Positions 186 through 17,603 of a stretch of DNA of 40,365 bases are shown here, one piece after another. A program made the position numbers and the translations under genes. The notes under the pieces are model-generated. The model made no database searches, was not told the DNA's origin, and saw only the letters and a program-made list of their open reading frames with translations. Position 1 is the stretch's first letter. The number at the start of each line of letters is the position of its first letter. This stretch comes from Elusimicrobiota bacterium (GTDB taxonomy: Bacteria > Elusimicrobiota > Elusimicrobia > Elusimicrobiales > Elusimicrobiaceae), in assembly GCA_012523635.1 (NCBI GenBank), contig JAAYTX010000105.1, positions 1-40,365 of the forward strand. The letters are read 5' to 3'.

Positions 186-1457
186 ATGCCATCTGCCAAA
201 AAAATCAAAGCCTCGTCTTCCGCCAAGCCCGTATTGCTTGCCATTTTGCCGTTCCTGCCGTCGGCCAGCGGCGGCCGCAGTGAAGCCGCGCTGTTCCGTT
301 TTCTGACCGCACTGTCTTCGCGTTTTGAAGTGAAATGCGTACCGGAAGGCCCGCCCACCGCCACCCGCCTGGCCGAAGCCGCCCTTTCGGCCAAGGGCAT
401 GAAAATCTACGCGCTGGGCAAGCCACCCCAGCGGGCCGAACTGGATGCAGGCATCCGCGCCGTGATAACAGAAAACCATTCCGCCCCGGTGGTGCTTGTC
501 TGCGGGCTGGACCTCATAAACAGGCACCTCTTTCAACTGCGCCTGTTCGCGCAGGACAGAAAGTTCGCCGCCCTTCTGCTTCCCGAAGACCTTGGAAAGC
601 TCGATTTTTCCGGCCTGAACCTGGCCGAACGCACCATAAAGAAAGCCGACCTTATAAAAACCCTCTCCCACGCCAATGCCGTGCTTTGTTGCGACAGCGC
701 GGCGGCGGCCAAATTGCAGGCGGCGGCGCGTTTCCCCGTGCTTGGTCCGGCGCAGGGCCTGCGCGAGATAAACGCGCTGTTCCGCCCGCAGAAACCACGG
801 CGCATAGGCGTGGTGCTGCTGCCGCAAGCCTACAAAATGGCCGCGCCGCTGGCGGCCATGCTGAAACGCCAGCCGGTAACAGCCAGATTTTTCAAGGTGG
901 GCACAGTGGCCGAAGCCGCCGCCCGCATAATGTCCGGGCGCGGAACGGAAAGCTGGCTCCTGCTGTGCAGGGCTTTCACCTGCTCGCCGGAAATACCGGG
1001 CAAACTGCTGTTCATGTCGGAACTGTTCCGCGACGCCGGGGCCGTGATGCCAGCCGTCCTGCGAAAGCTGGACAACGCGCACGCGCTTCCGCACAACAAA
1101 ATGCTGGCCGAGGCCTTCGCGCTGTCGCGGCGCGGCCTGTTCCGCGAACCTTTTTACATCAACGAACCGGCCGTGCTGTGCCTCAACCGCGGGGCCCTCC
1201 TGAAAACCGGCGGAACCGACACCCGCTTCTCTTCGCCAGACTACGCGCTGACAGACCTTTGCCTGCGCATGTATCAGGCGGGGCACCGCACCATCACCGC
1301 CGAGGACCTTGCCGTTTTCACCGAAGGCGCGGCCAAGACAGCAAAAGCCGACACCGAAGAACGCCAGCTTGAGAAAGAAACACTGGCGCGCAAATGGTGC
1401 ATGGAAAGCCTCAAATTCATGGAACTGCTGGTTTCAGAACTGCACGCAAACAGCTAG
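186..1457 (+). CDS. Divergent glycosyltransferase-2-like protein
   Basis: 423-aa ORF. The C-terminal segment 'TGGTDTRFSSPDYALTDLCLRMYQAGHRTITAEDLAVFTEG' resembles the GT2 'GxFDExF..YEDxDLCLRxxxAGY' region. Followed directly by a GT4-like gene. Confidence 0.6.
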   Translation: MPSAKKIKASSSAKPVLLAILPFLPSASGGRSEAALFRFLTALSSRFEVKCVPEGPPTATRLAEAALSAKGMKIYALGKPPQRAELDAGIRAVITENHSAPVVLVCGLDLINRHLFQLRLFAQDRKFAALLLPEDLGKLDFSGLNLAERTIKKADLIKTLSHANAVLCCDSAAAAKLQAAARFPVLGPAQGLREINALFRPQKPRRIGVVLLPQAYKMAAPLAAMLKRQPVTARFFKVGTVAEAAARIMSGRGTESWLLLCRAFTCSPEIPGKLLFMSELFRDAGAVMPAVLRKLDNAHALPHNKMLAEAFALSRRGLFREPFYINEPAVLCLNRGALLKTGGTDTRFSSPDYALTDLCLRMYQAGHRTITAEDLAVFTEGAAKTAKADTEERQLEKETLARKWCMESLKFMELLVSELHANS

Positions 1458-1459
1458 CT

Positions 1460-2671
1460 ATGCCGGAAAAGAAACGCATACTGCTTGTAGCCCCACTGCC
1501 GCCCTTCCCGCCTACAAACGGCGGGGTGCTGCGCATCTTCTCGCTGGTGAATTTCCTCAAGGAACGCTTTTCCTTCTCCCTGCTTTGCTTCGCCGCCTCT
1601 GAAGGGCCGGAAAAATACACCCAGGGAATAGCGCTGGTGGCACTGGAAAAACTTTTCGACGAAATACACACGGTGCCGTACGAAAGCATAATTTCCGCCA
1701 GGGATTACGCCTGCCCGGGCCTGCCGCGCCTTGCGCTGGACTGGTATTCCCCCGCCATGGCGGCCAAGGTGCAGGAGCTTTCCGCCGAAGGCGGCTACGA
1801 CATAATGCATTTCGAGTTCCTGCAAATGGCGTTTTATTCGTGGTACGCCTCAGGCGTGAAAACCTTCTACACCGAACACGATTTGAGCCATGTCTCGCTG
1901 TTCAACTCCTATTTCCGCGAATGGACCGGCGCTTCCCGCCTGCGGCAACTGCCGCAATGGCTTAAAGTGGTGCGCTACCACAAAAAGGTCTGCTCCGGCT
2001 TTGACCATATAATCACGCTCACCGAAAAAGACACAGCCGGGCTTGCCCGCATAGTGCCCGGCGCGAAAGTGACGCTCGTCAAAACAGGCTCCGACCCGGA
2101 GCGTTTCCACTTCCGCCTCAGAAACGCCGACGAGAACGGCGACGCCATAGTCTATGTCGGGCACTACCGCCATTATCCCAACGAGGAAGCCGCCCTTCGT
2201 CTTGCGACGAAAATATTCCCGCTGGTGAAGCGCGGCTGGCCCGGCGCGAAACTCCAGCTTGTCGGTTCCGACCCGACCGGGAAGATAAAAGCGCTGGCCT
2301 CGCCTGACATTGCCGTTACCGGCACAGTGCCTGAGATACACCCCTATCTTTCTTCTGGCGCGGTTTTCGCGGCCCCGGTCAGGCTCGGCTTCGGCATCAA
2401 GGGCAAGGTGATAGAAGCATTTTTCTCCGGCATACCGGTGGTGGCCAGCCGCACGGTGGCCGACGGCATACCCGAAGCCCGCCACGGCCAGCACATGCTG
2501 GTGGCCGGCAGCGACGCCGATTTCGCCGCCGCCCTTGTGCGCCTGAAGCAGGACCCGGAACTGAAACTGCGCCTTAGCGCCAACGCCCACGACATGGCCC
2601 GCCGCTGTTATTCCTGGCCCGAACTGGCCTCCAAACTGGGCGACGCCTACGACAGGGAGCTTGCCGGATGA
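1460..2671 (+). CDS. GT4-type glycosyltransferase (glycosyl transferases group 1)
   Basis: MPEKKRILLVAPLPPFPPTNGGVLRIFSL… start at ATG 1460 (the ORF track's 1394 start is upstream and overlaps the previous gene). 'APVRLGFGIKGKVIEAFFSGIPVVAS' is the GT-B donor-site region. Confidence 0.85.
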   Translation: MPEKKRILLVAPLPPFPPTNGGVLRIFSLVNFLKERFSFSLLCFAASEGPEKYTQGIALVALEKLFDEIHTVPYESIISARDYACPGLPRLALDWYSPAMAAKVQELSAEGGYDIMHFEFLQMAFYSWYASGVKTFYTEHDLSHVSLFNSYFREWTGASRLRQLPQWLKVVRYHKKVCSGFDHIITLTEKDTAGLARIVPGAKVTLVKTGSDPERFHFRLRNADENGDAIVYVGHYRHYPNEEAALRLATKIFPLVKRGWPGAKLQLVGSDPTGKIKALASPDIAVTGTVPEIHPYLSSGAVFAAPVRLGFGIKGKVIEAFFSGIPVVASRTVADGIPEARHGQHMLVAGSDADFAAALVRLKQDPELKLRLSANAHDMARRCYSWPELASKLGDAYDRELAG

Positions 2672-3783
2672 CCGCGTCGACGCTCCAAAAAACCTCTCTT
2701 GCGCCGGGCGTGGCGGGCACCCTGGCGTTTTTGGACAAAATCAGGCTCAAAGGCCCCGCCAACGACGGTCTGGCCGAACTGCATATAGAGCTTACCCACG
2801 CCTGCAACCTCAAATGCCCCATGTGCCACCACTGGCGGATGAAAAACCCTCCGCCCGGGAAAATGCTGGACGCCAAATCCCTGGCGCGGATGCTGGACGG
2901 CACAAAAAAACTGGACGGCATAAAGGCGGCGACGCTCACCGGCGGCGAACCTTTCCTGCGCGAAGATTTCGCCGAAATAGCCCTGCTCCTGCACAAGCGT
3001 TTCCCGAAAGCCTCGCTGGGGGCGCTGTCCAACTTCCAGTCGCCGGAGCTTGTCCTGCGCCGCCTGCGGCAACTGCGCGGGGCCGGGATAAAGATGTTCT
3101 GGCTGGGGTCCTCGCTGGACGGCATCGGCCCCGGGCACGACGCCATGCGCGGCGTGAAAGGCGCATACGCCAATCTGCTCAAAACAACGGCCCTGCTGAA
3201 GCAGGAGTTCCCGGACATCAATTTCGGTTTCAACTACACCCTTACGCCGGAAAATACGGACGGGCTGTTTGAAACCTATCTGGCCATGGCCTCGCGCGGA
3301 CTGTGGCTGGGGGCCCAGCTGGTGGTTAACCAGGAAAACCTTCCCGCAAAAGAATATGCGTGTACGGACGCGGCCAGAACCGCCGCCGCCGCGCAGATAG
3401 AGCGCGTGCTGACGCATATCTGCTTCGCCGAACGCGCATACGAACTGATAAACAGCGGCAGAAGCGCCGAGAAACCCTGGCTGTGGACGCAGCTGGCCTA
3501 CTGGCACAACCTGCGCCAGTACGCGCTGAAGCCGCGCCGCCTGTTTGAGACCTGCGGGGCGGGGCGCCGCTACGCGATGCTGGCCCCGGACGGCAGCCTG
3601 TTTTTCTGCCCAGTCAAAAAACATCTTATGGCTGGCAACGCAGCCGAAGCTGGATTTGACGCGGCGTGGAATTCGCCGCAGGCGCGTTCCATACGCAAAA
3701 CCCTTTCAAGCAAAAAATGCCACTGCTGGCTGCACTGCATAGCCAACCCTGTGCTGGAACAGGCGGCGGGAGCGCTGAAATGA
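2668..3783 (+). CDS. Radical SAM protein with SPASM-like C-terminus
   Basis: 'IELTHACNLKCPMCHHW' (CxxxCxxC), 'LTGGEPFLRED', and a C-terminal Cys cluster 'CGAGRRYAMLAPDGSLFFCPVKKH…KKCHCWLHC'. ATGA overlap with the upstream gene. Confidence 0.9.
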   Translation: MTASTLQKTSLAPGVAGTLAFLDKIRLKGPANDGLAELHIELTHACNLKCPMCHHWRMKNPPPGKMLDAKSLARMLDGTKKLDGIKAATLTGGEPFLREDFAEIALLLHKRFPKASLGALSNFQSPELVLRRLRQLRGAGIKMFWLGSSLDGIGPGHDAMRGVKGAYANLLKTTALLKQEFPDINFGFNYTLTPENTDGLFETYLAMASRGLWLGAQLVVNQENLPAKEYACTDAARTAAAAQIERVLTHICFAERAYELINSGRSAEKPWLWTQLAYWHNLRQYALKPRRLFETCGAGRRYAMLAPDGSLFFCPVKKHLMAGNAAEAGFDAAWNSPQARSIRKTLSSKKCHCWLHCIANPVLEQAAGALK

Positions 3784-4535
3784 AGCCGGAATGCAGCATA
3801 GTCATTCTTTGCCACAACGACGCGCATTACCTGGAAAACTGCGCCAAAAGCGTTTTCCGCAACACGCGCGGAGTGCGCTACGAGCTTATTCTTGTGGATA
3901 ACGATTCAAAGGACAACGCCGCCGAGGTGATGCGCAAGGTGAAGAAACGCGCCCCCTGCCCGGTGAAAATAATCAGGACGGGGCAGAACCTGTTTTTCGC
4001 AGGCGGCAACCTGCGCGGCCTGCAGGCCGCCTGCGGCGACTACGTGATGTTCCTCAACGCCGACACACTGGTGCCGCCCGGCTGGCTGAAAACGCTTTTA
4101 GGGCATATGAGGGCCAACCCCAACCTTGGCATGATAGGCCCGCTTACCAACTCGGCCGTGGGGCCGCAGTTCATCAAAGACGGCTGTCCCGATTTCAAAA
4201 AACTGGACAGCTGGCACAAAGCCTGGGCCGCCAAACGCGCCGGACGCCCCGAATGCGTGCCGTGGATAATAGGCTTCTGCGTGCTGATGCCGCGCGCGCT
4301 GGCGCTGCGCACCGAAGGCTTCAGCGCGGCCTACGGCCCCGGCGGCTACGAGGATTACGACCTCTGCCTGCAGTTACGCCTGCTGGGGCTGGAAATAGCG
4401 GTCTCGCCGGACTGCTATGTGCACCACTTTGGAGGAAAAGGCTACGCCGGCATGGACTACCACGCCCTGCGCGCCACCAACCAGACTTTCTACTGGAACG
4501 CCTGGACCGCCAAAATTCTGGAGAGACTGCCATGA
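3780..4535 (+). CDS. GT2-family glycosyltransferase
   Basis: MKPECSIVILCHNDAHYLENCAKSVFRNTRGVRYELILVDNDSKDN…; 'FLNADTLVPPGWL'; 'GPGGYEDYDLCLQLRLLGLEIAVSPDCYVHHFGG'. Start at ATG 3780, ATGA overlap. Confidence 0.92.
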   Translation: MKPECSIVILCHNDAHYLENCAKSVFRNTRGVRYELILVDNDSKDNAAEVMRKVKKRAPCPVKIIRTGQNLFFAGGNLRGLQAACGDYVMFLNADTLVPPGWLKTLLGHMRANPNLGMIGPLTNSAVGPQFIKDGCPDFKKLDSWHKAWAAKRAGRPECVPWIIGFCVLMPRALALRTEGFSAAYGPGGYEDYDLCLQLRLLGLEIAVSPDCYVHHFGGKGYAGMDYHALRATNQTFYWNAWTAKILERLP

Positions 4536-5638
4536 AAAAGAACCCAGCACCAAACAAGCCTTTCTCGCCCGACAAGATTTTCGCGCACTCAAGGCGCATA
4601 GAAAACTGGCTTGAAAACGGCCATTCAAAGCCCGTCACGTTCGAACTGGACATCACCAACATCTGCAACAACCAGTGCCCCGGCTGCTTCGGGTTCTATA
4701 ACGGCCTCAACAGCGAGATAATGCGCTTCCACGAAATAGAGACCGTGCTGCGCCAAGTGGCGGCCTTCGGCGGCAAGGCGGTCACCTTTACCGGCGGCGG
4801 AGAACCGCTGACACACCCGCATTTCATTGAAGCCCTGCAACTGGCCAAAAGCCTGGGGCTGGACACGGCGCTCATCAGCAACGGGCTGGCCCTCACCCCG
4901 AACATAGCCGACGCCGTGCTGAAAAACTGCACCTGGACGCGCATCAGCTTGGACGCGGCCGAGCCGGAAAGCTACCGCCGCACCCATGGCATGGGCTGGC
5001 AGGCCTACGCCAAGGTGCTGGACAACATCGGCATGCTGACCGAGCGCAAGCAGAAGCTTAACTCGCGCTGCACCGTGGGCGTGGGCTTTCTCACTCACGC
5101 CGGGGCCGACCACAACATACACAGCTTCGCGGAGCTGTGCAAAAAACTGGGCGTGGATTACGCCCAGTACCGCCCGCTTCTGCGCCGACACGGCGAAAAA
5201 TCGGCCGACTATTCGTCCAAGGCCGTCCTCAGCGACATGCAGCGGGCCAAGAAGGATTTTTCGAACGGGCACTTCAAGGTGCTGTGCTCGGAGCACAAAT
5301 ACGCCAAGATTTCGGCGGGCCAGACGGCCCGCCCCTACAAAAAATGCTACGGCCACAACTTCGCGGCCGTCATCTGCGCGGACATGAAAATGTACCTGTG
5401 CTGCCATATGCGCGGCGTGGAAAAATACTGCCTCGGCGACCTGCGCAAGGACAGGCTGGCGGACGTCTGGAAGTCGGCGCAGCGCAAGAAAGCTTTCGAG
5501 AACATAAATTTCAGGGACTGCCCGCCCCTGTGCCGCTGCGACTCCTTCAACACCATACTCTGGGAAATCAAGGAGGGCCGCCTGCCGCGCAAGGATTGGC
5601 CCAAGGGCCTTGTCTGGGAGCATGAGAACTTCATCTAA
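4532..5638 (+). CDS. Radical SAM/SPASM protein
   Basis: 'ELDITNICNNQCPGCFGF', 'TFTGGGEPLTHPHF', C-terminal 'CYGHNFAAVICADMKMYLCCHM…CPPLCRCD'. Start at ATG 4532, ATGA overlap. Confidence 0.9.
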   Translation: MKKNPAPNKPFSPDKIFAHSRRIENWLENGHSKPVTFELDITNICNNQCPGCFGFYNGLNSEIMRFHEIETVLRQVAAFGGKAVTFTGGGEPLTHPHFIEALQLAKSLGLDTALISNGLALTPNIADAVLKNCTWTRISLDAAEPESYRRTHGMGWQAYAKVLDNIGMLTERKQKLNSRCTVGVGFLTHAGADHNIHSFAELCKKLGVDYAQYRPLLRRHGEKSADYSSKAVLSDMQRAKKDFSNGHFKVLCSEHKYAKISAGQTARPYKKCYGHNFAAVICADMKMYLCCHMRGVEKYCLGDLRKDRLADVWKSAQRKKAFENINFRDCPPLCRCDSFNTILWEIKEGRLPRKDWPKGLVWEHENFI

Positions 5639-8402
5639 CCCCAAACGCGCCCTGGCGGCGCTGGTGCAGATGCCCGGCTGGGGCGTGGAAGCCCCCCCCT
5701 ACAGCCTGGCCTGCCTTGCCGCGTACATAAAGCAGAACACGCCGCACTCGGCCAAATGTTTCGATTTCAACCTGCGCTGTTACAGGGCGTCGCCTGCGCT
5801 GGCCCGCATGTGGGACGACAAGGACCTCTATTCCCTTTGGGAGGACGACCCGACCGTAGAGCGACTCTTTCAGGAGAACAGGGGGCTGTTTGAAGCCTGC
5901 GCGCGGGAACTGGTGCGCAGCGGCGCGCAACTGATAGGCTTCACCACCCACACCACTTCCTGGCGCCTCAGCCTCAAAATGGCGGAACTGGTGAAAAGCC
6001 TGGCGCCAGACCGGTTTATAGTTTTCGGCGGCCCGCAATGCTCGCTGGCCCAGGCCGGGCTTGAACTGGCGCGCCACCCCTGCGTGGACGCGACCAGCAC
6101 CGGCGAGGGCGAACTTGTGTTGTCGGCGATACTGGACTCGATAGCGGCCACCGGAAAACTGCCGCGACTGCCGGGCTTGGTTGTCAAAGACGGAAAAGGC
6201 GGCGTAAAAAACTGCGGCCCGTCCCCATTCCCGGTGAACCTGGACCATCTGCCCTACCCGGATTATTCCGATTTCGCGAGGGAAATGTCGGCTGACGTGT
6301 ATAAAAACCCGGCCCGTATAGAGATACTGGACAGCAGAGGCTGTCCAACCCGCTGCAACTTCTGCAGCGAATGGCAGTTCTGGCACTGCTACCGCAGCAT
6401 GAGCGGCGAACGCGTTTACGCCGAGGCCATGCACCAGCTCCGCCAAAACCCCAGGGCGGGGCATATCTACTTCATAGGCTCGCTAATGAACGGCAACCCG
6501 GCCGCGCTTGAAAAATTCTGCGACCTGGCCCTGGCGGGGGGCCTGAAATTCACCTGGGAAGGGCAGGCCAAGGTGCATCCGCGCATGACGCCGGAACTGG
6601 TGAGCAAAATGGCCCGCTCAGGCTGCAACTGGCTGGGCATAGGCATAGAGTCCGGCTCCGAACGCCTGCGCTCCAAGCACATGCACAAAAGCTTCACCAA
6701 CGCCAACGCGCTGGACTTCCTGAAAGCCTGCAAGGAATCCGGCATCAAAACCCAAATAAACATAATGTTCGGGCATCCGGGCGAGACGCGTGAAGACTTC
6801 AACGAAACCCTGAAATTCCTTTTGCAGGCCCGTCCCTTCATAGATTCTGTGCTGGCCAGCCAGTCCTTCTGCGTGCTGGACAAGCACACCGAACTTTACA
6901 ACCGCAGTTCCGAGTTCGGCATAGGCAACCGCGAGCATCATCTTTTCTGGCATTCCGACGGAGGGCGCAATACCTATCTGGAACGCTTCCGCCGCTACGA
7001 GGAGTTCTGCAAGCTGGCGCTGTTCCTGGGCCTGCCGGAATCCTCCGGCGTGGCGCGGGTGAAGCCGGATAAATGGTTCATGCTGGGCGAGTATTTCCGC
7101 CACATAAAAGATTTCAGGCACGCGTTGACCTGCTACAGGCGCTCCTACAAGCGCGAGAACATGAAAGAAACGGCCGCCCGGCATATCGACGCGCTGTCGC
7201 GCGAACTGAAACTGCCGCGACCGGACCTGCCCGCCGACAAAACCGGTGAAGCACCGCGGACGCAGGAGGCAAAGCCCTCTTTCGACCCGGAGTTCAGGGC
7301 GAGAAACCTGGCCCTGAACGAAAAGGAATTCGCGGAACGCGCGCTGGTGCTGGAGTCCACCCCCCGCTTCGTCACGCTCGGAACCCACTGGAAATGCAAC
7401 GCCCGCTGCGTTTTCTGCCAGCAGGACGACCTCCCGCTTTTCAACCCCGGCATTTACGATTCTCTGTTCGACAGAAAGCTGGGCCCGGCCCTGCGCGGCG
7501 CGGAAAAGATTTCCTTTGTGGGCTTCGGCGAACTGCTGTTGATGCCGGAAGTGGAGTCCTTCCTTGACAGGCTCAACGCCGAACTGCCCGACACCTGGAA
7601 AATATTCACCACCAACGGCTCGCCCCTGCGCATGGAACTGGACAAACGCTTCCTGCAAGGGAACTATTCTCTGCAAATCTCCCTGCACGCCCCGTATGCC
7701 GCCCTGCACAAGGAGCTTACCGGGCTGGACCGCTTCAACGAAATAACAGCCTCAATACGGCGGCTGTCTGCCCTGCGCCTGGAACACGGCAGACAGCGCA
7801 ACCTGCACCTGAGCCTGGTCTGCGTGCTAAACGAAAAAAACATAGACTGTCTTCCCGAAATGGCGGCTTTCGCTTCCGGCCTGGGCGTACAGGAACTGCG
7901 TTGCGAATATATGACGGTTTTCCGCCCCGAACTGGTGCCGCTGTCCTGCTACTTTTTCCAGAAGCGGACAAACCGGGCGCTGGACTCGGCCCGCGCAATG
8001 ACTGAGCAACTGCGGGCGGCAGGCATGGACCTGAAACTGCCGCCGTCGTTCGGCGACAAAACCGCCACAAAACCCTACGAATCCGGGCAGAAAGGCGAAC
8101 ATTCGGTCTGCGACGACCCGTGGCGGCACATCTATGTGGAAGCGCAGGGCACCTCCCTGCCCTGCTGTTTCTGGGGCGCCCATAGCGGCGACCTCAACAG
8201 ACAAAGCTTTCAGGAACTCTGGAACGGGACTTTTTACAGGCGCCTGCGTCAGGCCATGGCCGAAGGCAAGCCCCTGCCCACCTGCGCCAGCTGCGTCAGG
8301 CTGAAGGGCAATTCCATAGACAGGTTTGAGACGCATATGACAGCGCGCGGGGCCTTGCGCGCGCAGATACTCAAGGCCGCAAAACGGATGAAAAAGTCAT
8401 GA
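5622..8402 (+). CDS. Double radical SAM fusion: B12-binding-like N-terminus + rSAM 1 + TPR-like linker + rSAM 2/SPASM
   Basis: N-terminal 'MPGWGVEAPPYSLACLAAYIKQ…' and 'FIVFGGPQCSL' B12-rSAM style. rSAM 1 'SRGCPTRCNFCSEW' with 'GIGIESGSERLR' and 'MFGHPGET'. rSAM 2 'THWKCNARCVFCQQD', 'TNGSPL', SPASM-like 'CDDPWRHIYVEAQGTSLPCCFW…CASC'. Confidence 0.9.
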   Translation: MRTSSNPKRALAALVQMPGWGVEAPPYSLACLAAYIKQNTPHSAKCFDFNLRCYRASPALARMWDDKDLYSLWEDDPTVERLFQENRGLFEACARELVRSGAQLIGFTTHTTSWRLSLKMAELVKSLAPDRFIVFGGPQCSLAQAGLELARHPCVDATSTGEGELVLSAILDSIAATGKLPRLPGLVVKDGKGGVKNCGPSPFPVNLDHLPYPDYSDFAREMSADVYKNPARIEILDSRGCPTRCNFCSEWQFWHCYRSMSGERVYAEAMHQLRQNPRAGHIYFIGSLMNGNPAALEKFCDLALAGGLKFTWEGQAKVHPRMTPELVSKMARSGCNWLGIGIESGSERLRSKHMHKSFTNANALDFLKACKESGIKTQINIMFGHPGETREDFNETLKFLLQARPFIDSVLASQSFCVLDKHTELYNRSSEFGIGNREHHLFWHSDGGRNTYLERFRRYEEFCKLALFLGLPESSGVARVKPDKWFMLGEYFRHIKDFRHALTCYRRSYKRENMKETAARHIDALSRELKLPRPDLPADKTGEAPRTQEAKPSFDPEFRARNLALNEKEFAERALVLESTPRFVTLGTHWKCNARCVFCQQDDLPLFNPGIYDSLFDRKLGPALRGAEKISFVGFGELLLMPEVESFLDRLNAELPDTWKIFTTNGSPLRMELDKRFLQGNYSLQISLHAPYAALHKELTGLDRFNEITASIRRLSALRLEHGRQRNLHLSLVCVLNEKNIDCLPEMAAFASGLGVQELRCEYMTVFRPELVPLSCYFFQKRTNRALDSARAMTEQLRAAGMDLKLPPSFGDKTATKPYESGQKGEHSVCDDPWRHIYVEAQGTSLPCCFWGAHSGDLNRQSFQELWNGTFYRRLRQAMAEGKPLPTCASCVRLKGNSIDRFETHMTARGALRAQILKAAKRMKKS

Positions 8403-9586
8403 GCGACACCGGCGCGGAACAGGCTGTAGCCGACAAGCTGGCCCAAAGGAAGCTCTGGGCCAAGCTTTTCAACTACCGCGCGGCCCGCGAGCAGGCGCGG
8501 CTTGGCCTTGAATACGCAAGCGCCATGCCCTACTGGCTCACCATAGACCCTTCAAGCTGCTGCCAGCTCCAGTGCCCGTTCTGCCCGACAGGACAGCGCC
8601 GCAACGTGCGCCCGAACGCGCTCATGGAACCGGCGCTTTTCCGCGCAGTCATGAAACAACTCGGCCCTTCGCTTCTTCATGCCGACCTTATGAACTGGGG
8701 AGAACCCATGCTTCATCCCGACATCTTCGAATTCATAGCCCTCACCAAAAGCTACCGCGTGGAAACGTTGCTTTCCTCCAACATGAACCATCTGCCCGAA
8801 GGCGGGGCCGAAAAGCTGGTGCTTTCCGGGCTCGACCTGCTCACCGTCTCCATAGACGGGGCGTCGCAGGAAAACTACGCCAAATACCGAGTAGGAGGAG
8901 ATTTCAACGCGGCGGTGGAAAACACGGCCCGTGTGGCCAGCGCAAAACTCAAGCTCGGGCGGAGCAACCCGAAAATAACATGGCAGTTCCTGGTATTCCG
9001 CCACAACGAACATGAAATGGACAGCGCGCGCGAACTCGCCGTTCAGGCCGGGGCCGACGAAATAGGCTTCACCGCCCCCAACCTGCCGTTCAAGCCCGGC
9101 ATCAAGGACGAGTGGATGTCCACACTGCCCAAATACGCGCTTTACGACGCCGAACATTTCCCCGAACGACCCCCGTGGGAGTGGGACAAAACCACGGACA
9201 CCGAAGGCAAGCCCCTGGATATAAACGTGGATGTTTACGCCGGGGATAAAACGCGCCGCCCTTGCCTCTGGCCCTGGACTGCGACGGCCATAAACCCTGA
9301 CGGCTCGGTCTCCCCCTGCTGTTCGGTCGAGGAACGCTGCCACGACTTCGGCACACTGGCCGAGCACTCTTTCAGCGCCATCTGGAACAACACGCAGTAC
9401 AGGGCCGCGCGCAGGCACATAGCGGCTTACGCCAGGGGCGAGAAGAATTCCCTTCCCGCCTCCCCGCACGCCTGCGAACGCTGTTTCTCCATAGGCAAAT
9501 CCGATTTCCGCTTCCCGCACTGGTGGGAAACCGACAGACTCTGCGCCTTCCCGGACCCTTTGGCCCCGCATAAGGACGGGAAATGA
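8399..9586 (+). CDS. Radical SAM/SPASM protein
   Basis: 'DPSSCCQLQCPFCPTGQ', 'LMNWGEPMLHPD', 'PCLWPWTATAINPDGSVSPCCSVEERCHDFGTLAEHSFSAIWNN'. ATGA overlap. Confidence 0.92.
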   Translation: MSDTGAEQAVADKLAQRKLWAKLFNYRAAREQARLGLEYASAMPYWLTIDPSSCCQLQCPFCPTGQRRNVRPNALMEPALFRAVMKQLGPSLLHADLMNWGEPMLHPDIFEFIALTKSYRVETLLSSNMNHLPEGGAEKLVLSGLDLLTVSIDGASQENYAKYRVGGDFNAAVENTARVASAKLKLGRSNPKITWQFLVFRHNEHEMDSARELAVQAGADEIGFTAPNLPFKPGIKDEWMSTLPKYALYDAEHFPERPPWEWDKTTDTEGKPLDINVDVYAGDKTRRPCLWPWTATAINPDGSVSPCCSVEERCHDFGTLAEHSFSAIWNNTQYRAARRHIAAYARGEKNSLPASPHACERCFSIGKSDFRFPHWWETDRLCAFPDPLAPHKDGK

Positions 9587-12510
9587 AAACAGCGCTGATT
9601 CAATCCACGGTCTGGTGGACTGTGGATATGCCGCTTGGCATAGCCCAGTTGGCCGGTGCGCTTCGCCATGCGGGCCACGAGCCTTGCGCGCTGGACCTCA
9701 ACATTCTTCTCTGGCACAAGGCGACGGAACCGGAAAAACCGCTTTGGGACTGGGAGAATTTCCAATACTGGAACAACCCAGAACTGGTAAAACGCCACAT
9801 AGACTCAAACCGCGCATTTATCGAAAGCGAACTGCAAAAGCTACTCAGGGCGGGAATCGGGGCGGCAGGATTTTCGGTCAATTCCGGCAACCAGTTGTTC
9901 AGCCTTGAACTGGCACGCCTGCTCAAGAAAGAGAAGCCGGACCTGTTTATCATGTTCGGCGGCCAGCATTTCTTCAGGTCCGAAAACGCCTCGGCCTGGA
10001 TGCAGAACCCCGAAGCGGACTGCGTGTTCACCGGCCCCGGCGACCTTGTGATGCCCGCCATGCTGACCGCGCTTGAAAAAACCGGCGGGCCTGCCGTACA
10101 GCCCGGCACGCTGCTGCGCTCCCCGTCGGGGATAATAAACGGCGGCCCCGCCCAGCCGGTGCCTGATTTGGACGCCCTGCCTTTTGCCGACTTCACCGTG
10201 CTTCCTGTCGGGCTTTATGCCAACAAGCTCCACATTCCCTTCCAGTCCAGCCGCGGCTGCATCTGGAAATGCCGCTATTGCAGCGCCACAAATTTCTGGC
10301 AGGGCTACAACCAGATGAGCGGCGAGCGCATGTTCTCCGAGCTGATGCACCACAAAAGCCTGTTTCCGGACCGCACTCACGTGGAGTTCTACGACCTCAC
10401 CGCAAACGGCAGGCCGGAGGCTCTGCACAAGCTGTCTGAACTGCTTATAGAAGACCACAAAGCCAACGGCTGGAAAAATTTTTTCGGCTGGAAGATAAAC
10501 GCAGTAATCCGTCCGGAAATGACGCCGGAACTCCTGAAGAAACTGCGCCAGTCCTTCTGCAAGGACATAATTTACGGAATAGAAAGCGGCTCTGAACGTG
10601 TGCTCAGGCTGATGAACAAAAACTACAGGCCGGACGTGGCCCTGCAAGTCCTTCATGACACGCACCAGGCCGAAATCCACACCACGGCGAACTTCATGTT
10701 CGGCTTCCCGGGCGAAACCGAAGAGGATTTCGGGCAAACGCTGGCTTTTCTTGAAAAAGCCGCGCCGCACCTGGACAGGGTGTACGCAAGCGCCACGTTC
10801 ACCAGCCTGGAAGAAGGCAGCTACCTCACCGACCATAGGGCCGAGTTCGGCATCGCGGTGCCGCCGCCCGACAACTTCCACAACCTCTACTGGGAAAGCT
10901 CCGACGCTACAAACACCTACCCGGTGCGCATGGAGCGCTACAAACGCTTCCGCGCCCGGGCCATAGCGCTGGGGCTGGACGCCTACAAAGGCGTGCAGGG
11001 CGACCTTGAGCAGAACTCCCTCTTCAGCCTGGCCGAATACTACCGCTACAAAGGCGACCACGCAAAAGCTGTTGAAAACCTGCTTGCGGCCTTCGATATA
11101 AATTCCGCCAACGAAGCCGTGCTGGACGCGCTTTTGCCGTATTACAAGGACCTTGCCCTCTACCACTCGGCGGCAAGGCAGTTTATGCGCCTACAACGCT
11201 ACCCTGCACGAGGCACCCGCACCCAAATGGAAAGCCGCATTTCGGCCTTGATATCCGGCATGCGGGACAAAGCGTCGTTTGATGCCGCTACAATGAGCCT
11301 GCGCTGGATGAGTTCCAGCTTTGACCCGCAACAGCTTTCCTATCTGCTGGCCCTGGCGCATGAAACTGTTTCGCGTTTCATCCCGGAGCATAAACTGGAC
11401 GGCATACACCTGTTCCCCCTACTCCCCCAGCGCGGATCGGGAAGAAACAACACTCTGTCTGCCCTGCGAGACCATAACACCCGCTTCAACGCGCAGGAAT
11501 GCTCTCAAAACCGTTCAGTGCTGGGCACTTATCCGCGCCGCGTCTTCCTGCAAATGGACGGCCCCTGCAACGCCGACTGCATTTTCTGCTCCCGGGACGA
11601 CGAATACGAGCATTTCTCCCTGGATAAATATCTCAATGCCCTGCACGGCAGGCTGCGCCCTCTTCTGCGGCATGCCGAAGAGGTGCTGTTCACCGGCTCC
11701 GGCGAATTCCTGCTGCTGCCGGAAGCGGAACGGATAATTGAGTTTTTCAATCGCTTCTATCCACAACTTGAAAAACAGCTGGCCACCAACGCCTCGCACA
11801 AAAATCGCCGCCTGTGGGAGCTGATAAGCGCGCCAGAGAGCCGCTACACCATACAGGTTTCGCTGCACAGCGCCACGCCGCAGACGCATAAAACCATGAC
11901 GCGCCTGCCCTCTTTTGACGACGTGATGGGCAACCTCGAATACCTGGCCTCGCGCCGCAGTATGGCGGGGCATCCCAAATTGCACCTGATGTTCGTGATG
12001 ACCACCGAAAACATACAGGATCTGCCGGCCTTCGTGCGGCTTGGCGCAAAACTCAAGGCCGACAAGCTGATAGCCAACCACGCCTATATCTACAGGCCGG
12101 ACCAGCGCAAGTACTCGCTCCATGGGAACACGGATTCAGACAAATGGCTGGCGCAGGCTTATGCAGAAGCCGAAAAACTAGGCGTAAAAACATTTTTCCC
12201 TCCTCTTTTCACCGGGCAAGTCGCACGAACCGCGCAAGCGCCGCAGAAGATAAACTGCCACGAGCCGTGGACACAGCTTATGGTGAACCCCCGTGCCGAC
12301 GCCCTGCCCTGCGACCTGTACGGCGAATTCTCCCAAAACCTCCTGCGCACTGATTTCTGGGCGCTCTGGAACGGCCCGGAATACAGGAAAATACGCGCCT
12401 CGATACGCGAAAAAGGCGGCTGCCTGGCACGCTGTCCGCGCCACAACCCGGACAGCCTCAAGACCGCTGAAAACCTGCAAATACAGCGCCGGGAATCGCA
12501 ACAGCCATGA
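9583..12510 (+). CDS. Double radical SAM fusion, paralogue of the 5622-8402 product
   Basis: N-terminal B12-binding-like 'MPLGIAQLAGALRHAGHE…FIMFGGQHFF'. rSAM 1 'SSRGCIWKCRYCSATNFWQGYNQMSGERM', 'YGIESGSERVLRLMNK', 'MFGFPGETEEDF'. rSAM 2 'MDGPCNADCIFCSRDD', SPASM-like 'CHEPWTQLMVNPRADALPCDLYGE'. Confidence 0.9.
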   Translation: MKTALIQSTVWWTVDMPLGIAQLAGALRHAGHEPCALDLNILLWHKATEPEKPLWDWENFQYWNNPELVKRHIDSNRAFIESELQKLLRAGIGAAGFSVNSGNQLFSLELARLLKKEKPDLFIMFGGQHFFRSENASAWMQNPEADCVFTGPGDLVMPAMLTALEKTGGPAVQPGTLLRSPSGIINGGPAQPVPDLDALPFADFTVLPVGLYANKLHIPFQSSRGCIWKCRYCSATNFWQGYNQMSGERMFSELMHHKSLFPDRTHVEFYDLTANGRPEALHKLSELLIEDHKANGWKNFFGWKINAVIRPEMTPELLKKLRQSFCKDIIYGIESGSERVLRLMNKNYRPDVALQVLHDTHQAEIHTTANFMFGFPGETEEDFGQTLAFLEKAAPHLDRVYASATFTSLEEGSYLTDHRAEFGIAVPPPDNFHNLYWESSDATNTYPVRMERYKRFRARAIALGLDAYKGVQGDLEQNSLFSLAEYYRYKGDHAKAVENLLAAFDINSANEAVLDALLPYYKDLALYHSAARQFMRLQRYPARGTRTQMESRISALISGMRDKASFDAATMSLRWMSSSFDPQQLSYLLALAHETVSRFIPEHKLDGIHLFPLLPQRGSGRNNTLSALRDHNTRFNAQECSQNRSVLGTYPRRVFLQMDGPCNADCIFCSRDDEYEHFSLDKYLNALHGRLRPLLRHAEEVLFTGSGEFLLLPEAERIIEFFNRFYPQLEKQLATNASHKNRRLWELISAPESRYTIQVSLHSATPQTHKTMTRLPSFDDVMGNLEYLASRRSMAGHPKLHLMFVMTTENIQDLPAFVRLGAKLKADKLIANHAYIYRPDQRKYSLHGNTDSDKWLAQAYAEAEKLGVKTFFPPLFTGQVARTAQAPQKINCHEPWTQLMVNPRADALPCDLYGEFSQNLLRTDFWALWNGPEYRKIRASIREKGGCLARCPRHNPDSLKTAENLQIQRRESQQP

Positions 12511-13628
12511 CCAGCGGGCACAGGCGTTCGCTTGACAAGTATACCGACCTGACGCCGGAGCGCGTGCGCCGCATCCGCGAATGGTTTGCGGGAAAACCGC
12601 AAAGCCCGATATTCGCGGAAATCTATCCCACGATGTCCTGCAACCTGAACTGCCTGTTCTGCCGCAGGCAGACCTACTTTCCGCCAGTGCCGCGCGGCCC
12701 CGAACTGCCGCAAGCCCGGCTTCTGCGGCTGCTAGACGAAATCACCGAAATGGACGTATTGGAAGTATGCATCAAGGGCGGCGGAGAGCCGCTGATGCGG
12801 CGCGGCATACTGGAGCACGCGGCTAAACGCTTCGGCAAGGCGCTTGTGCGCGGGCAATTGGTAACAAACGGCACGCTGATGGACGAGAAACTGGCCGGAT
12901 TGCTGACGGACAGCGGCTGGATGGAAGTCTGCTTCAGTCTTGATTCCCCGTTTGAGCAGACGCACGACTATCTGCGCGACAGGAAAGGCGCTTTCGCACT
13001 GGCGGCAAGAGGAATAAAAGCGCTGGCCGCCGCCAAACGCGCGGCAGGGCGCAAATTCCCAGTTATAAAAATAAACATGGTTATCACCGCCACTAACTGC
13101 AGACAGGTACCGGAAATGCTGCGTTTCTGCGCCGAAAACGGCGTCGGAACTCTGGACCTTGACGCCATGGACCCCGAGGTTCCCGGTTGCGAGCATCTGC
13201 GCCTTTCGCGGGAACAGGCTCAAGAGTTCAGCGCGCATGCGCCGGAATGGGCGGAATTGGCCGCGAACAGCGGCATACATACCAATCTTGCGATGTACTC
13301 TCAAACGGCTTACGTTCAGCGCGGCAAAGCCCCGGAAGCCGCGCCGAAATCAGCGGCGAAGACCCTGCCGCCCTGCCTGCTGCCCTGGCAGCAGATTTCC
13401 ATCAGGGCTGACGGGAGCGTTGTGCCCTGCTGTGTGGCCAGCGACGACTATAAAACTCCGGCCCTGCACTCAAAAACGCTGGCGGAAGCCTGGTTCGGCG
13501 AACCGATGGAAAGCATACGCCGCGCCATGCTGTCCGGCGGCAGGCCATGGTTCTGCCATGCCTGCACCCGGGCTTTCAGCGACGCCAATTCGCGCCTGCT
13601 GGACGAATGCGGCTTAAGCCATAAATAA
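12507..13628 (+). CDS. Radical SAM/SPASM protein
   Basis: 'PTMSCNLNCLFCRRQ', 'CIKGGGEPLMRRG', 'LVTNGTLM', 'CLLPWQQISIRADGSVVPCCVASD…CHAC'. ATGA overlap. Confidence 0.92.
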   Translation: MTSGHRRSLDKYTDLTPERVRRIREWFAGKPQSPIFAEIYPTMSCNLNCLFCRRQTYFPPVPRGPELPQARLLRLLDEITEMDVLEVCIKGGGEPLMRRGILEHAAKRFGKALVRGQLVTNGTLMDEKLAGLLTDSGWMEVCFSLDSPFEQTHDYLRDRKGAFALAARGIKALAAAKRAAGRKFPVIKINMVITATNCRQVPEMLRFCAENGVGTLDLDAMDPEVPGCEHLRLSREQAQEFSAHAPEWAELAANSGIHTNLAMYSQTAYVQRGKAPEAAPKSAAKTLPPCLLPWQQISIRADGSVVPCCVASDDYKTPALHSKTLAEAWFGEPMESIRRAMLSGGRPWFCHACTRAFSDANSRLLDECGLSHK

Positions 13629-13652
13629 GCTATCCTATTTTCCAGAACAACC

Positions 13653-14681
13653 ATGGCAGACAACAGACCTGACAACATCAAAAACGCCCCGCCTCACAGG
13701 GTTTTCTTCAACTGGGACGTGGTGTACCGCTGCAACTATAAATGCACCTACTGCACCTATACCGTGCGCGGCTGGGACAAAATACCCGGCATGGAGATAC
13801 TGCCGACCCACGAGCAGATGGTGGCCGGATGGAAGCGCATGCGCCAGCTATACGGCTGCTGCCATGTGATGATGTCCGGCGGAGAGCCCAGCATACTCCC
13901 CCGCTTTTACGAACTGATGGAGGAAATGTCCGCGCTCCACACTATTGAGCTTATAAGCAACCTCTCTTTCGACGCTAAAAAACTCCTTTCCGTGGTGGGC
14001 CCTGACAAACTGCGGGTCGCGGCTTCGCTTCACCTCAACCACGTTACCCCGGAAGAGTTCCTCGAAAAGGCGCTGGCGCTTAAAAAAGCCGGAGTGGAAG
14101 TTTTCATAAACTTCGTGGCCTACCCGCCGCATCTTCAGCGCATGAAGGAAATCCACGCACTGTTCCTGGCCAACGACATCCCTTTCTACATCCACCCCTT
14201 CACCGGGCCGTTCAACGACAGGCTCTATCCGCGAGACTATATCCCAGCCGAACTGGAGCTTTATCAAGAGGCCGTGAACATCGGCGGACGAATAGCCCAC
14301 AACAGCCACTGGCTTAATTTCAAAAAGGAAAACCTTCAGCCGCGCGTGGCGACCAAGGACGGCTTCGCGACCATGACGCCCCCGCAGTCGGTGAAGGAAA
14401 TAAAGCCGGAGCCGATTGTCTGCAAGATGGGGCACATGTACGCGAAAATACTGCCCGACGGCATGACGCTGCGCTGCTGCGCGAAAAACGAGTTTTTCCG
14501 TTCGCCGGAGAAAATAAGCGCGCCGGACCTTCTTGGCAACATATTCACCGACCCTGACTTCAAAATGCACCCGGAGCCTCAGCCCTGCGCGCACAGGTCC
14601 TGCCCCTGCGACCGCCGCATGAAACTGGGCGAGGAATCCAACTGGCTGGACCGCTGGCGCATAATGCAGCAGCCTTTTTAA
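13653..14681 (+). CDS. Radical SAM protein with compact Cys-rich C-terminus
   Basis: 'DVVYRCNYKCTYCTY', 'MMSGGEPSILPRFY', C-terminal 'CKMGHMYAKILPDGMTLRCCAKN…PCAHRSCPCD'. Confidence 0.88.
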   Translation: MADNRPDNIKNAPPHRVFFNWDVVYRCNYKCTYCTYTVRGWDKIPGMEILPTHEQMVAGWKRMRQLYGCCHVMMSGGEPSILPRFYELMEEMSALHTIELISNLSFDAKKLLSVVGPDKLRVAASLHLNHVTPEEFLEKALALKKAGVEVFINFVAYPPHLQRMKEIHALFLANDIPFYIHPFTGPFNDRLYPRDYIPAELELYQEAVNIGGRIAHNSHWLNFKKENLQPRVATKDGFATMTPPQSVKEIKPEPIVCKMGHMYAKILPDGMTLRCCAKNEFFRSPEKISAPDLLGNIFTDPDFKMHPEPQPCAHRSCPCDRRMKLGEESNWLDRWRIMQQPF

Positions 14682-14685
14682 ACCT

Positions 14686-15543
14686 ATGCCGGAAGACGAC
14701 AACAAACAACCGCAGGTGAGATTCACCTGGAACACGCACTGGGGGTGCAACTTCCGCTGTTCCTACTGCTTTTTTCACGACCTATGGGAACATTACGCCC
14801 CACGCAACGTTTACAAGCCGGCGGATTTCTGGATAGAACGCTGGAAAGCGGTACATGAACGCTACGGGCGCTGCTACATCGTAGTCAACGGCGGCGAGCC
14901 GCTGGCTTACCCCGACTTCGTCAAAATCATACTGGCGGTGTCGCAACTGCATTACCCCATAAACATCACCACCAACGCTTCAATACACCTTGAAGAACTT
15001 ATAGAGAAGGCCGACCCGCGCCGCATAACACTTTCGCTCAGCTTCCACCCGGAACACCACAAGGACATAGACAAATTCATCGCGCTGATGAGCAAAGTGC
15101 GCGGCAGAGGTTTTGAAGGATGCAATAACATAGTGGCCTATCCCCCCTATATGAAAGAACTGCCTGAATGGCTGGACAAGTTTGCCGCCGCAGGGCATCC
15201 GATGAAAATAAACCCCTTCATAGGCGACTACCAGGGCAAACACTACCCCGAAGCCTTCACCCCGGAAGAAAAGAAGATAATGGGCATGCAGGAAGGCTGG
15301 GTTGAGGAAAAGAAGCGCTACTCGAAGCTGTGCGCGGCAGGCTTCAAGGCCGCGCTGATACTGCCCGACGGCGGAGTGACCCGCTGCGGGCAGATAGGCG
15401 ACAGGGGCGTTTTCTCCAATTTCTTCGACCCGGATTTCCGGCTGCTGGACGCCCCCGCCCCCTGCGACGCCGAACGCTGCCCCTGCGACGAATGGAAGAT
15501 AATCCCCGACGAGACCGCCTCCGAGGGCCACTATCTGCCATGA
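14686..15543 (+). CDS. Radical SAM protein, paralogue of the 13653-14681 product
   Basis: 'NTHWGCNFRCSYCFF', 'VVNGGEPLAYPDF', C-terminal 'CAAGFKAALILPDGGVTRCGQ…PCDAERCPCDEW'. Confidence 0.88.
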   Translation: MPEDDNKQPQVRFTWNTHWGCNFRCSYCFFHDLWEHYAPRNVYKPADFWIERWKAVHERYGRCYIVVNGGEPLAYPDFVKIILAVSQLHYPINITTNASIHLEELIEKADPRRITLSLSFHPEHHKDIDKFIALMSKVRGRGFEGCNNIVAYPPYMKELPEWLDKFAAAGHPMKINPFIGDYQGKHYPEAFTPEEKKIMGMQEGWVEEKKRYSKLCAAGFKAALILPDGGVTRCGQIGDRGVFSNFFDPDFRLLDAPAPCDAERCPCDEWKIIPDETASEGHYLP

Positions 15544-15666: not shown

Positions 15667-16791
15667 ATGCCTGTGCAGAACTCCGCAAAAATGACGGTCA
15701 AATTCGTAAACGCCGTGCGCAATTACCACATGATTCAGAAGGAAATAGACGCCGCCTACAGGGACGTCATGGAAAGCGGCGAATACATCGCCAGGCGCCA
15801 CCTGAGCAGCTTCGAGGAGAATCTGGCCAAATTCGTGGGCACGAAATACGCCGTCGGCCTCAACAGCGGCTACGATGCCCTGCACATGTCCCTTCGCGCT
15901 GCCGGCGTGGGGCGCGGAGACGAAGTGATAGTCCCGGCGCACACCTTTGTGGCCACCTGCTCGGCGGTGGTGAATGCCGGGGCGGAGCCGGTGCTCGTGG
16001 ACGTGGGCAAGGATTTCAACATAGACATTTCCAAAATTGAGGAAGCCATAACCCCCCGCACCAAGGCCATAATACCGGTGCATCTCAGCGGCTACATGGC
16101 CGACATGCCCGCTGTGATGAAAATAGCCGAAAAGCACAAGCTGGCCGTGGTGGAAGACGCCTGCCAGAGCCTTGGCTCGAGCATCAACGGGCGCGGGGCC
16201 GGGTCCTGGGGCCTCACCGGCTGCTGGAGCTTCTATCCCTTCAAGATACTTGGCGGCTACGGCGACGGCGGCGCCATCACCACCAACGACCCGGAAGTGG
16301 CCGACTTCGCGCGCCGTATGCGCTATAACGGCGAAGACCGCCATACCGGCGAATACCACGGCCACGGCTTCACCTGCCTGCTGGACAACCTCCAGGCAGC
16401 ATTCCTGGACGTCAAACTGCGCCACCTGCCGGCCTGGATAAAGTTCCGCAAGGCGCTGGCCCAGCGCTACCGCGACGCCCTTTCCGACCTGCCGGACCTG
16501 TTGCTGCCCCACTACGACAGGGCGGGTTTTGACCACATCTACCAGAACTACACCCTGCGCTCGAAACAGGGAAGCGACTTCTCCGATTACCTCAAGGCAA
16601 ACGGCATAGAGGTGCTGACGCAGTTCCGCAAGCCCTATTACAGGCACGAGGCGCTCAAGCTCAAGGACAGGGGCTTCCCGGAAACCGAGGCGCTGAGCCG
16701 CGAGGTCTGCTCCCTGCCGATGAACGTGGAGATAACGGACGAGGAAGTCGCCTACGTCATAAAAACCGTACGCGCTTTCTACAAAAAGTGA
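15667..16791 (+). CDS. DegT/DnrJ/EryC1/StrS-family PLP aminotransferase
   Basis: 'GTKYAVGLNSGYDALHMSLRAAGVGRGDEVIVPAHTFVATCSAV', 'VVEDACQSLGS', 'WSFYPFKILGGYGDGGAI' (Lys in the PLP-motif context). Confidence 0.95.
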   Translation: MPVQNSAKMTVKFVNAVRNYHMIQKEIDAAYRDVMESGEYIARRHLSSFEENLAKFVGTKYAVGLNSGYDALHMSLRAAGVGRGDEVIVPAHTFVATCSAVVNAGAEPVLVDVGKDFNIDISKIEEAITPRTKAIIPVHLSGYMADMPAVMKIAEKHKLAVVEDACQSLGSSINGRGAGSWGLTGCWSFYPFKILGGYGDGGAITTNDPEVADFARRMRYNGEDRHTGEYHGHGFTCLLDNLQAAFLDVKLRHLPAWIKFRKALAQRYRDALSDLPDLLLPHYDRAGFDHIYQNYTLRSKQGSDFSDYLKANGIEVLTQFRKPYYRHEALKLKDRGFPETEALSREVCSLPMNVEITDEEVAYVIKTVRAFYKK

Positions 16792-17603
16792 ACATGGACG
16801 CCAAAAGACACAGCGAACTGAAAGACATCTGCCGCCTGGTGCGGCGCGACGTGCTGGAAATGTGCGAACGCACCAGTTCCGGCCACGTCGGCTCGGCCTT
16901 CTCGGTGGTGGAGATACTGGTGGCCCTCTACTTTGAGGCCATGCACGCCGACCCGAAAGACCCGGAAAGGGACATCGCCATACTTAGCAAAGGCCATGCC
17001 TGCGCCGCGCAATACTCGGTGCTGCACCGCAAAGGCATAATGCCCGACGACAGGTTCGCCTCCTTCTCGGTAAACGGAAGCGTGCTGGGGCATCACCCTC
17101 ATTGGGAACCGGCCATCGGGCTGGAAGGCAACATGGGCTCGCTCGGGCACGGCCTCCCAATAGCGGCCGGAATGGCCTATGCCGCGTCCAAACAGAAATC
17201 AAAGGCCAAATTCTTCGCCATCATGAGCGACGGCGAGACCGAGGAAGGCTCAGTCTGGGAAGCGGCGATGTTCGCCGCCCACCACAAGCTGTCCAACCTC
17301 TGCGCGATTGTGGACGCCAACGGCATACAGGCCCTGGGCAATACCAGGGACATAGTGTTCCCGGCCCCGCAGCCGCAGCGCTGGCACGGCTTCGGCTGGC
17401 GCGTGGAGGAAGTGGACGGACACGACCTGAAGCAACTGGCCTCGGCGCTCTCCAAGGCCGGAGAACCCGGCGGACCGCTGGTGGTGGTGGCCAACACAGT
17501 AAAGGGCAAGGGAGTCAGCTTCATGGAAAACAAACTCCTCTGGCATTACCGGCAGCCCAAGGGCGAGGAATTCCTCGCCGCCATGAAGGAGCTTGAAAAA
17601 TGA
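16788..17603 (+). CDS. Transketolase, N-terminal (TPP-binding) subunit
   Basis: 'SGHVGSAFSVVEILVALYF', 'ILSKGHACAAQYSVL', 'MGSLGHGLPIAAGMAYA', 'IMSDGETEEGSVWEAAMFAAHHKLSNLCAIVDANGIQ'. Start is GTG 16788 (overlapping the upstream stop) or ATG 16794. Confidence 0.95.
   Translation: MNMDAKRHSELKDICRLVRRDVLEMCERTSSGHVGSAFSVVEILVALYFEAMHADPKDPERDIAILSKGHACAAQYSVLHRKGIMPDDRFASFSVNGSVLGHHPHWEPAIGLEGNMGSLGHGLPIAAGMAYAASKQKSKAKFFAIMSDGETEEGSVWEAAMFAAHHKLSNLCAIVDANGIQALGNTRDIVFPAPQPQRWHGFGWRVEEVDGHDLKQLASALSKAGEPGGPLVVVANTVKGKGVSFMENKLLWHYRQPKGEEFLAAMKELEK

Follow-up and report, generated by a model that had tools for sequence, protein, structure and literature searches.

T1 is a 926 aa protein encoded on the forward strand at nt 5622-8402 of a 40,365-nt stretch of DNA from an Elusimicrobiota bacterium (assembly GCA_012523635.1, contig JAAYTX010000105.1, positions 1 to 40,365), here called the window. 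It combines two radical S-adenosylmethionine (rSAM) cores of different types in one chain. A cobalamin (B12)-type Rossmann domain and a first rSAM core are followed by tetratricopeptide repeat (TPR)-like helices, a linker, a second rSAM core and a SPASM domain. The t1 gene is part of an operon that encodes ten rSAM cores and two recognisable glycosyltransferases (GTs). We lean towards the view that T1 belongs to a surface-glycan operon and acts there as a tailoring enzyme with two radical activities, performing a cobalamin-dependent and a SPASM-type step together with the related protein T2 and further partners. In a wider sense, a run of about ten radical enzymes found in two groups of uncultured bacteria probably decorates a cell-surface sugar polymer. 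The architecture, the operon, its conservation, the constraint on both halves of T1, the reshuffling of modules and the enrichment of exporter genes in relatives are direct observations. Below, genomes are labelled G and loci or contigs L; G000 is the window's own genome.

Architecture and Fold of T1

The t1 frame comprises 926 uninterrupted codons. Its domain borders were drawn from the frame, Pfam matches, an orthologue alignment and an AlphaFold2 model. On whole T1, Pfam finds Radical_SAM in two stretches, SPASM above its cut-off and B12-binding just below. The cobalamin-type Rossmann domain (aa 11-200, nt 5652-6221) is indicated by this B12-binding match (PF02310), by the predicted secondary structure and by the top Foldseek hits OxsB, TsrM and MgmA. 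The first rSAM barrel extends from about aa 230 to 412 (nt 6309-6857) and contains the motif CPTRCNFC (aa 241-248, nt 6342-6365); PF04055 scores 78 bits on the N-half alone. Helices at aa 452-528 (nt 6975-7205) separate the cores. They are considered TPR-like because a joint T1/T2 profile has hits to designed TPR proteins in this region; in addition, an Omnitrophota relative carries a TPR_1 match, and AlphaFold2 predicts helices here. The adjoining linker (aa 529-555, nt 7206-7286) varies among orthologues and is partly modelled with low confidence. The second core, at about aa 556-800 (nt 7287-8021), was delimited with the AlphaFold2 model and carries CNARCVFC (aa 592-599, nt 7395-7418). It is followed by the SPASM domain (nt 8109-8294; PF13186 42.5 bits, cut-off 21.5) with Cys 830, 848, 888 and 891 plus C849, arranged as C830-DDPW...PCC(847-849)...C888-ASC891. 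In the three closest orthologues, none of the cysteines in the two cores or the SPASM domain is replaced.

A preliminary description made from the sequence alone had seen a single open frame with a B12-binding-like N-terminus, two rSAM cores and a SPASM-like tail. Pfam, the structural model and the motif positions uphold this order, and both motifs lie within 1-2 nt of where it had placed them. The TPR-like segment and a second gene of the same architecture (nt 9583-12510) were absent from that description.

The AlphaFold2 model of T1, built from a 34-row alignment, has a mean pLDDT of 90.1, and both halves are modelled well. From the N-terminus, its secondary structure suggests a Rossmann-type domain and a barrel, then helices (aa 452-528) and a linker of low confidence around aa 540-550, and finally a second barrel and a SPASM domain. 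The top Foldseek structures are OxsB, TsrM, CysS and MgmA, followed lower down by AprD4, SuiB, DesII, SkfB, BlsE and PqqE. The Foldseek output is silent on which half each structure covers; the group of cobalamin-dependent rSAM (Cbl-rSAM) enzymes would correspond to the N-half and the SPASM/sugar group to the C-half. No solved structure spans the entire T1; of the hits listed, none exceeds a query-normalised TM-score of 0.38. By its fold, the N-half has the cobalamin-type Rossmann domain of class B rSAM enzymes, and its CxxxCxxC motif lies in the rSAM barrel. The C-half combines CxxxCxxC with the C-terminal SPASM cysteine set, as expected for a SPASM rSAM protein. In a comparison with NCBIfam, every match among the best 25 of the 38 families found scored far under its cut-off.

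Recurrence of the Fusion and Selection on Both Halves

In a profile search over 342 Elusimicrobiota genomes, the T1 family was found in 31. Ten of the 342 encode the full-length fusion in one frame: this genome, G097, G074, G230, G234, G218, G219, G220, G215 and G216. G345 (holding L044) and G234 were counted once, as the fusion has near-equal coordinates and equal frame length in both. Both CxxxCxxC motifs are intact in the nine other fusion genomes. A missed stop codon or frameshift, named in the preliminary description as a reason to distrust the fusion, is thus excluded, and so is an assembly artefact joining two genes.

The ratio of nonsynonymous to synonymous substitution rates (dN/dS) is low throughout. 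For four close pairs it amounts to 0.08-0.14 in the N-half and 0.09-0.10 in the C-half, for one more distant pair to 0.23 and 0.19, and for L042/L043, as calculated from the dN and dS values, to ~0.21 and ~0.27, respectively. As judged from these ratios, both halves of T1 are under purifying selection. That one half is dead was ruled out, since the Cys motifs are intact and dN/dS is ~0.1 in both halves.

Module Reshuffling in Elusimicrobiota and Omnitrophota

Two T1 peptide patterns were scanned over 85,462 species genomes. The scan yielded 22 loci, whose titles name either Elusimicrobia(les) or Omnitrophota/Omnitrophica; because the exact pattern was required, absence from other groups holds at that sensitivity. 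One of the 22 belongs to Candidatus Gygaella obscura, which is placed under Candidatus Omnitrophota in the tree listing. In a sample of 286 Omnitrophota genomes, 12 were positive. To compare the loci, every CxxxCxxC core in them was read, and two module trees were calculated.

The N-terminal module of T1 (T1N) occurs in several contexts. It is fused to the C-terminal module (T1C) here, in L042, L043 and others, and forms a gene of its own in L045, L046, L049, L053 and L054. In nine Omnitrophota loci (L047, L048, L050-L052, L055-L057, L060), T1N instead has the orthologue of gene F, the gene directly downstream of t1, as its C-terminal fusion partner. Triple-rSAM proteins of the order C-T1N-T1C, with the module of operon gene C in front, are encoded in L044, L121 and L122. 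T1C in turn terminates GT-rSAM chains in several Omnitrophota loci; in L053 (4835-11068), it is the last module of a 2077-aa protein that also contains a GT2, a GT4 and a C-type rSAM module. In the module tree, T1C (support 97), F (99) and T1C together with the corresponding module of T2, T2C (99), form separate groups. Since T1C and F are clean groups, the Omnitrophota partner of T1N is F and not a diverged T1C. By parsimony, each of the two phyla appears to have joined T1N to a partner of its own; this is a reading of the tree and not a formal reconstruction.

Further unusual chains were observed at these loci. Very long proteins in which GT2 and GT4 are joined to one or two rSAM/SPASM modules are encoded at L053:4835-11068 and L048:2-4729, both from Omnitrophota. 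Three CxxxCxxC rSAM motifs per frame were found at L044:8639-12727, in L121, in L122 and at L057:20236-23631. L048:12931-14904, inside the cluster, encodes a Methyltransf_24 methyltransferase fused to an rSAM/SPASM module. In a scan of IMG/VR, most T1 matches were confined to the N-half; contigs L098 and L099 of this viral collection have matches that span both halves (query 14-898 and 8-898, 27% identity).

The preliminary description had regarded T1 as a B12-type rSAM enzyme joined to a SPASM rSAM enzyme. This stands, but the fusion is less fixed than was assumed, as in relatives the N-module is free or linked to a different SPASM rSAM module. Such variation argues for a set of cooperating enzymes, with T1N-T1C as one of several pairings, rather than for a dedicated two-step enzyme, and the reshuffling among relatives suggests that the enzymes act as a team. 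What is unusual is not so much the single fusion as the reshuffling of a whole set of rSAM and glycosyltransferase modules. Conversely, the halves of T1 might be functionally independent and joined for co-expression and stoichiometry only, without sequential chemistry on one substrate. In Elusimicrobiota loci L045, L046 and L049, the N and C modules are indeed separate genes, and the N-module changes its partners. However, the split modules stay within one cluster, and the repeated joining of modules that share a cluster, together with a conserved helical segment, more often signals cooperation. Independence of the halves is therefore considered highly doubtful.

T2 and the Operon

T2 (975 aa, nt 9583-12510, plus strand) has the same B12-rSAM-rSAM-SPASM order as T1, as determined by Pfam and by alignment to T1. 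Its gene is located two genes downstream of t1, and the two proteins are 31-32% identical from end to end. T1C and T2C are sister groups in the module tree, which fits duplication of a linked pair.

The operon A-I (nt 186-15543) lies on one strand, with a largest gap of 24 nt. Gene A (nt 186-1457, 423 aa) is conserved in the operon. It looks glycosyltransferase-like by eye only: the window's copy matches no Pfam or NCBIfam family, and Pfam likewise gives nothing above cut-off for the homologues from two related genomes. Gene B (nt 1394-2671) encodes a GT4 glycosyltransferase (PF13692, 1e-20) and gene D (nt 3780-4535) a GT2 glycosyltransferase (PF00535, 3.4e-26). By Pfam, gene C (nt 2668-3783) encodes an rSAM/SPASM protein. 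The same type is encoded by genes E (nt 4532-5638), F (nt 8399-9586) and G (nt 12507-13628), whereas genes H (nt 13653-14681) and I (nt 14686-15543) are listed as rSAM. All these genes are on the plus strand. ATGA overlaps with the preceding stop codon are found at the starts of D, F (with t1), t2 and G (with t2), and t1 begins 17 nt within gene E. Thus, the ten rSAM cores are distributed over C, E, T1 (two), F, T2 (two), G, H and I. In whole G000, which was searched piecewise for genome-wide queries, 53 rSAM matches were counted. Elsewhere in this genome, L036:5060-8711 (G000:C136) encodes a single-core B12-rSAM relative that adjoins a gene which is carbamoyltransferase-like by its start only.

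The core gene order is kept in two other genomes of the order, G074 and G097. Adjacent to the operon, a DegT aminotransferase and a split transketolase (N and C parts) are encoded at nt 15667-18520 on the plus strand. They were rejected as core genes, as the orthologous loci of G074 and G097 have no counterpart, and probably do not belong to the core.

Exporter Context and Possible Substrates

In Omnitrophota genome G425, an ABC-2 permease, an ATP-binding cassette (ABC) ATPase, a Wzt C-terminal domain and a GT2 gene precede the cluster. Three of the Omnitrophota genomes searched (G343, G474 and G425) have Wzt_C and the T1 modules on one contig, and in all three Wzt_C precedes the modules by 5-8 kb. 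In 20 Elusimicrobiota genomes, the distance between ABC2_membrane (Wzm-type) genes and T1N was compared with a null model. Six have such a gene within 6 kb (0.5 expected) and eight within 16 kb (1.1 expected). These data fit polysaccharide export. A role of T1 in tailoring a surface glycan is the explanation that we hold to be somewhat more probable than its alternatives combined.

Several observations weigh against it. PF02310 scores 30.2 bits on T1, slightly under the curated cut-off of 32.1, and Radical_SAM scores 24.5 bits on the C-half alone, under its cut-off of 29.5, with SPASM well above. The AlphaFold2 model has a pTM of 0.64, which means that the relative placement of the halves is not fixed. 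The simulated P value for the 16-kb distance (~5e-6) is optimistic, because several of the tested genomes are related (G307, G310, G311 and G317 share a family) and the null model takes no account of gene clustering. The window's contig, which starts 185 nt upstream of gene A, yielded no Wzm/Wzt gene; hence, the glycan link rests here on the operon's own glycosyltransferases and on relatives. CobS had no match in G000, so the cobalamin of T1 would have to be imported or scavenged; a point in favour of the glycan reading, by contrast, is a match to the MetH activation domain, within which a TGA is reported, as the host thus probably uses cobalamin. Finally, a PqqD-type protein is encoded adjacent to the cluster, upstream of it, in G074 and G097, which fits a peptide substrate.

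This last point leads to an alternative in which T1 and T2 are maturases of a ribosomally synthesized and post-translationally modified peptide (RiPP) or modify a protein. They would catalyse C-methylation, epimerisation or crosslinking, and the glycosyltransferases would glycosylate the peptide. The best NCBIfam matches of the T1 N-half are the RiPP families TIGR03975 and ApyD, peptide maturases often carry a SPASM domain like that of the C-half, and the Foldseek hits include SuiB and SkfB. The scores are, however, low (TIGR03975 137.3 bits versus a cut-off of 281.85, ApyD 129 versus 750). Operon A-I has no room for a precursor gene: the gaps amount to 24 and 4 nt, and 123 nt follow gene I; further upstream of gene A than the 185 nt that the contig provides, such a gene is possible. 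Of 30 cluster-positive genomes, five lack any PqqD match, and the PqqD gene of the window's genome is found on another contig with its own neighbours, with PF05402 giving no match on the window's contig. Moreover, the exporters near the cluster in relatives are of the polysaccharide ABC type. The low RiPP scores, the lack of precursor space and the unlinked or absent PqqD place a glycan above a peptide as substrate. The peptide alternative is thus unlikely, with a glycopeptide as a further candidate.

Two related candidates were discarded. Small open reading frames common to G097 and G074, inspected as nearby RiPP precursors, mostly run antisense to genes; a single real-looking frame among them encodes the PqqD-type protein. 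PqqD as a core part was rejected owing to its absence from five cluster-positive genomes and its unlinked position in the window's genome. Independently of this, L161:12797-13984, in the cluster-positive genome G234, encodes a GT2 with a C-terminal PqqD-type domain. A conserved pair, in which a PqqD-type protein is accompanied by a gene whose GYASG...SDIDV motif is nucleotidyltransferase-like (Pfam only E 0.12), was found at L032:2535-4402, L035:11329-11649, L042:2964-4544 and L160:5669-7466; it adjoins the cluster in two genomes and is located elsewhere in the window's genome.

As a further alternative, the product could be a glycosylated small molecule of secondary metabolism that resembles an aminoglycoside or a nucleoside; the rSAM proteins would then act on free sugars, like AprD4, BtrN, DesII and OxsB. 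Sequence-profile and fold hits to OxsB, AprD4, BtrN, DesII and BlsE agree with it, as do the adjacent DegT aminotransferase and a carbamoyltransferase gene downstream of the cluster in G074. Against this, the two conserved loci lack DegT and transketolase, the proximity of Wzm/Wzt fits export of a polymer, and fold hits to sugar rSAM enzymes are common to much of the superfamily. Such a metabolite appears rather improbable.

Proposed Mode of Action

If T1 tailors a surface glycan, its N-half would perform a cobalamin-dependent (class B) rSAM step, most likely a methylation or a rearrangement/deoxygenation, with rearrangement as in OxsB. The C-half would contribute a SPASM rSAM step with one putative auxiliary Fe-S cluster, most likely a redox reaction (oxidation) or an epimerisation. 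The cobalamin-dependent step would come first and the SPASM step second. The TPR-like segment may hold the cores together or dock partner proteins. T1 would act with T2, the other rSAM proteins of the operon and the glycosyltransferases on an intermediate, probably a glycosyl one, that is still in the cytosol and exported afterwards. The glycan substrate, the use of cobalamin, the reactions and a physical assembly are what we infer.

The preliminary description had proposed that one chain could run two radical steps in sequence, with C-methylation followed by dehydrogenation or epimerisation as an example; these particular reactions are hypothetical. Two such steps on one substrate are plausible for T1, because the Cbl-rSAM enzyme AlsB and the rSAM enzyme AlsA provide a precedent and the two halves of T1 are under similar constraint. 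Albucidin synthesis is reported to need both AlsB and AlsA (cited in PMC13331322).

More tentatively, and with clearly less confidence than for T1 itself, a radical assembly line can be imagined. About ten interchangeable rSAM modules and glycosyltransferases, joined in lineage-specific fusions (double, triple, GT-rSAM-rSAM), might form one multi-enzyme complex in uncultured Elusimicrobiota and Omnitrophota. By successive radical steps, it could build a surface glycan with carbon-carbon bonds or unusual residues.

Other Features of the Window

A defence or antiviral role was discarded, since PADLOC gives only a weak viperin-type hit and one candidate-system hit. Distant from the operon, nt 26986-29316 encode a xanthine-dehydrogenase-type molybdenum subunit (MoCoBD_1 then MoCoBD_2) that is interrupted by an in-frame TAA (nt 28303-28305). 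The same frame resumes behind it; a pseudogene, a split subunit and an assembly error are candidate explanations.

Comparison With Known Systems

The preliminary description had called such tandem fusions uncommon among characterised enzymes. In agreement with this, no characterised enzyme with the architecture of T1 was found in the open-licence PubMed Central (PMC) papers and structures searched. Cbl-rSAM enzymes (OxsB, TsrM, TokK, CysS and MgmA as well as the HpnJ and BchE models) resemble T1 in that a cobalamin-type Rossmann domain precedes the rSAM barrel. They have one rSAM core, whereas T1 adds the TPR-like segment, a second rSAM core and SPASM. SPASM/twitch rSAM enzymes (SuiB, SkfB, PqqE, anSME; BtrN) share with T1C the CxxxCxxC motif plus the SPASM cysteine set; Foldseek hits of T1 include SuiB, SkfB, PqqE and anSME, and sequence-profile hits include BtrN and PqqE. 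These enzymes are stand-alone chains, whereas T1C is located C-terminal to a Cbl-type rSAM module.

FbiC is the single-chain form of FO synthase, which makes the F420 precursor and has neither a B12 domain nor a SPASM domain. CofG and CofH models were not among the best 25 of the 38 NCBIfam families matched by T1, which carries B12 and SPASM domains instead. FO synthase (CofG/CofH) has two rSAM domains and uses two 5'-deoxyadenosyl radicals (PMC11917521). AlsB and AlsA are two separate proteins with a nucleoside substrate, whereas T1 is one chain. Apart from FO synthase and AlsA/AlsB, nothing relevant on tandem B12-rSAM/SPASM proteins or on rSAM polysaccharide loci was found in the open-licence PMC papers.

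ABC-transporter-dependent (Wzm/Wzt) O-antigen and polysaccharide loci combine GT2, GT4, Wzm and Wzt, the genes found near T1N in relatives. To our knowledge, no Wzm/Wzt locus has been described that encodes ten rSAM cores or GT-rSAM-rSAM fusions, and none was found in the same collection of papers. If the proposed role of T1 is true, bacterial glycan chemistry that has not been described so far would exist in two little-known phyla, and single-chain two-step radical enzymes would be available ready-made for study. In that case, clusters of this kind, rich in rSAM genes, may also be wrongly labelled as RiPP clusters by automated genome mining. So far, Cbl-dependent and SPASM rSAM enzymes have been studied singly and mostly on peptides or small metabolites, whereas here they are covalently joined, reshuffled modules, some of them linked to glycosyltransferases, in apparent surface-polysaccharide loci.

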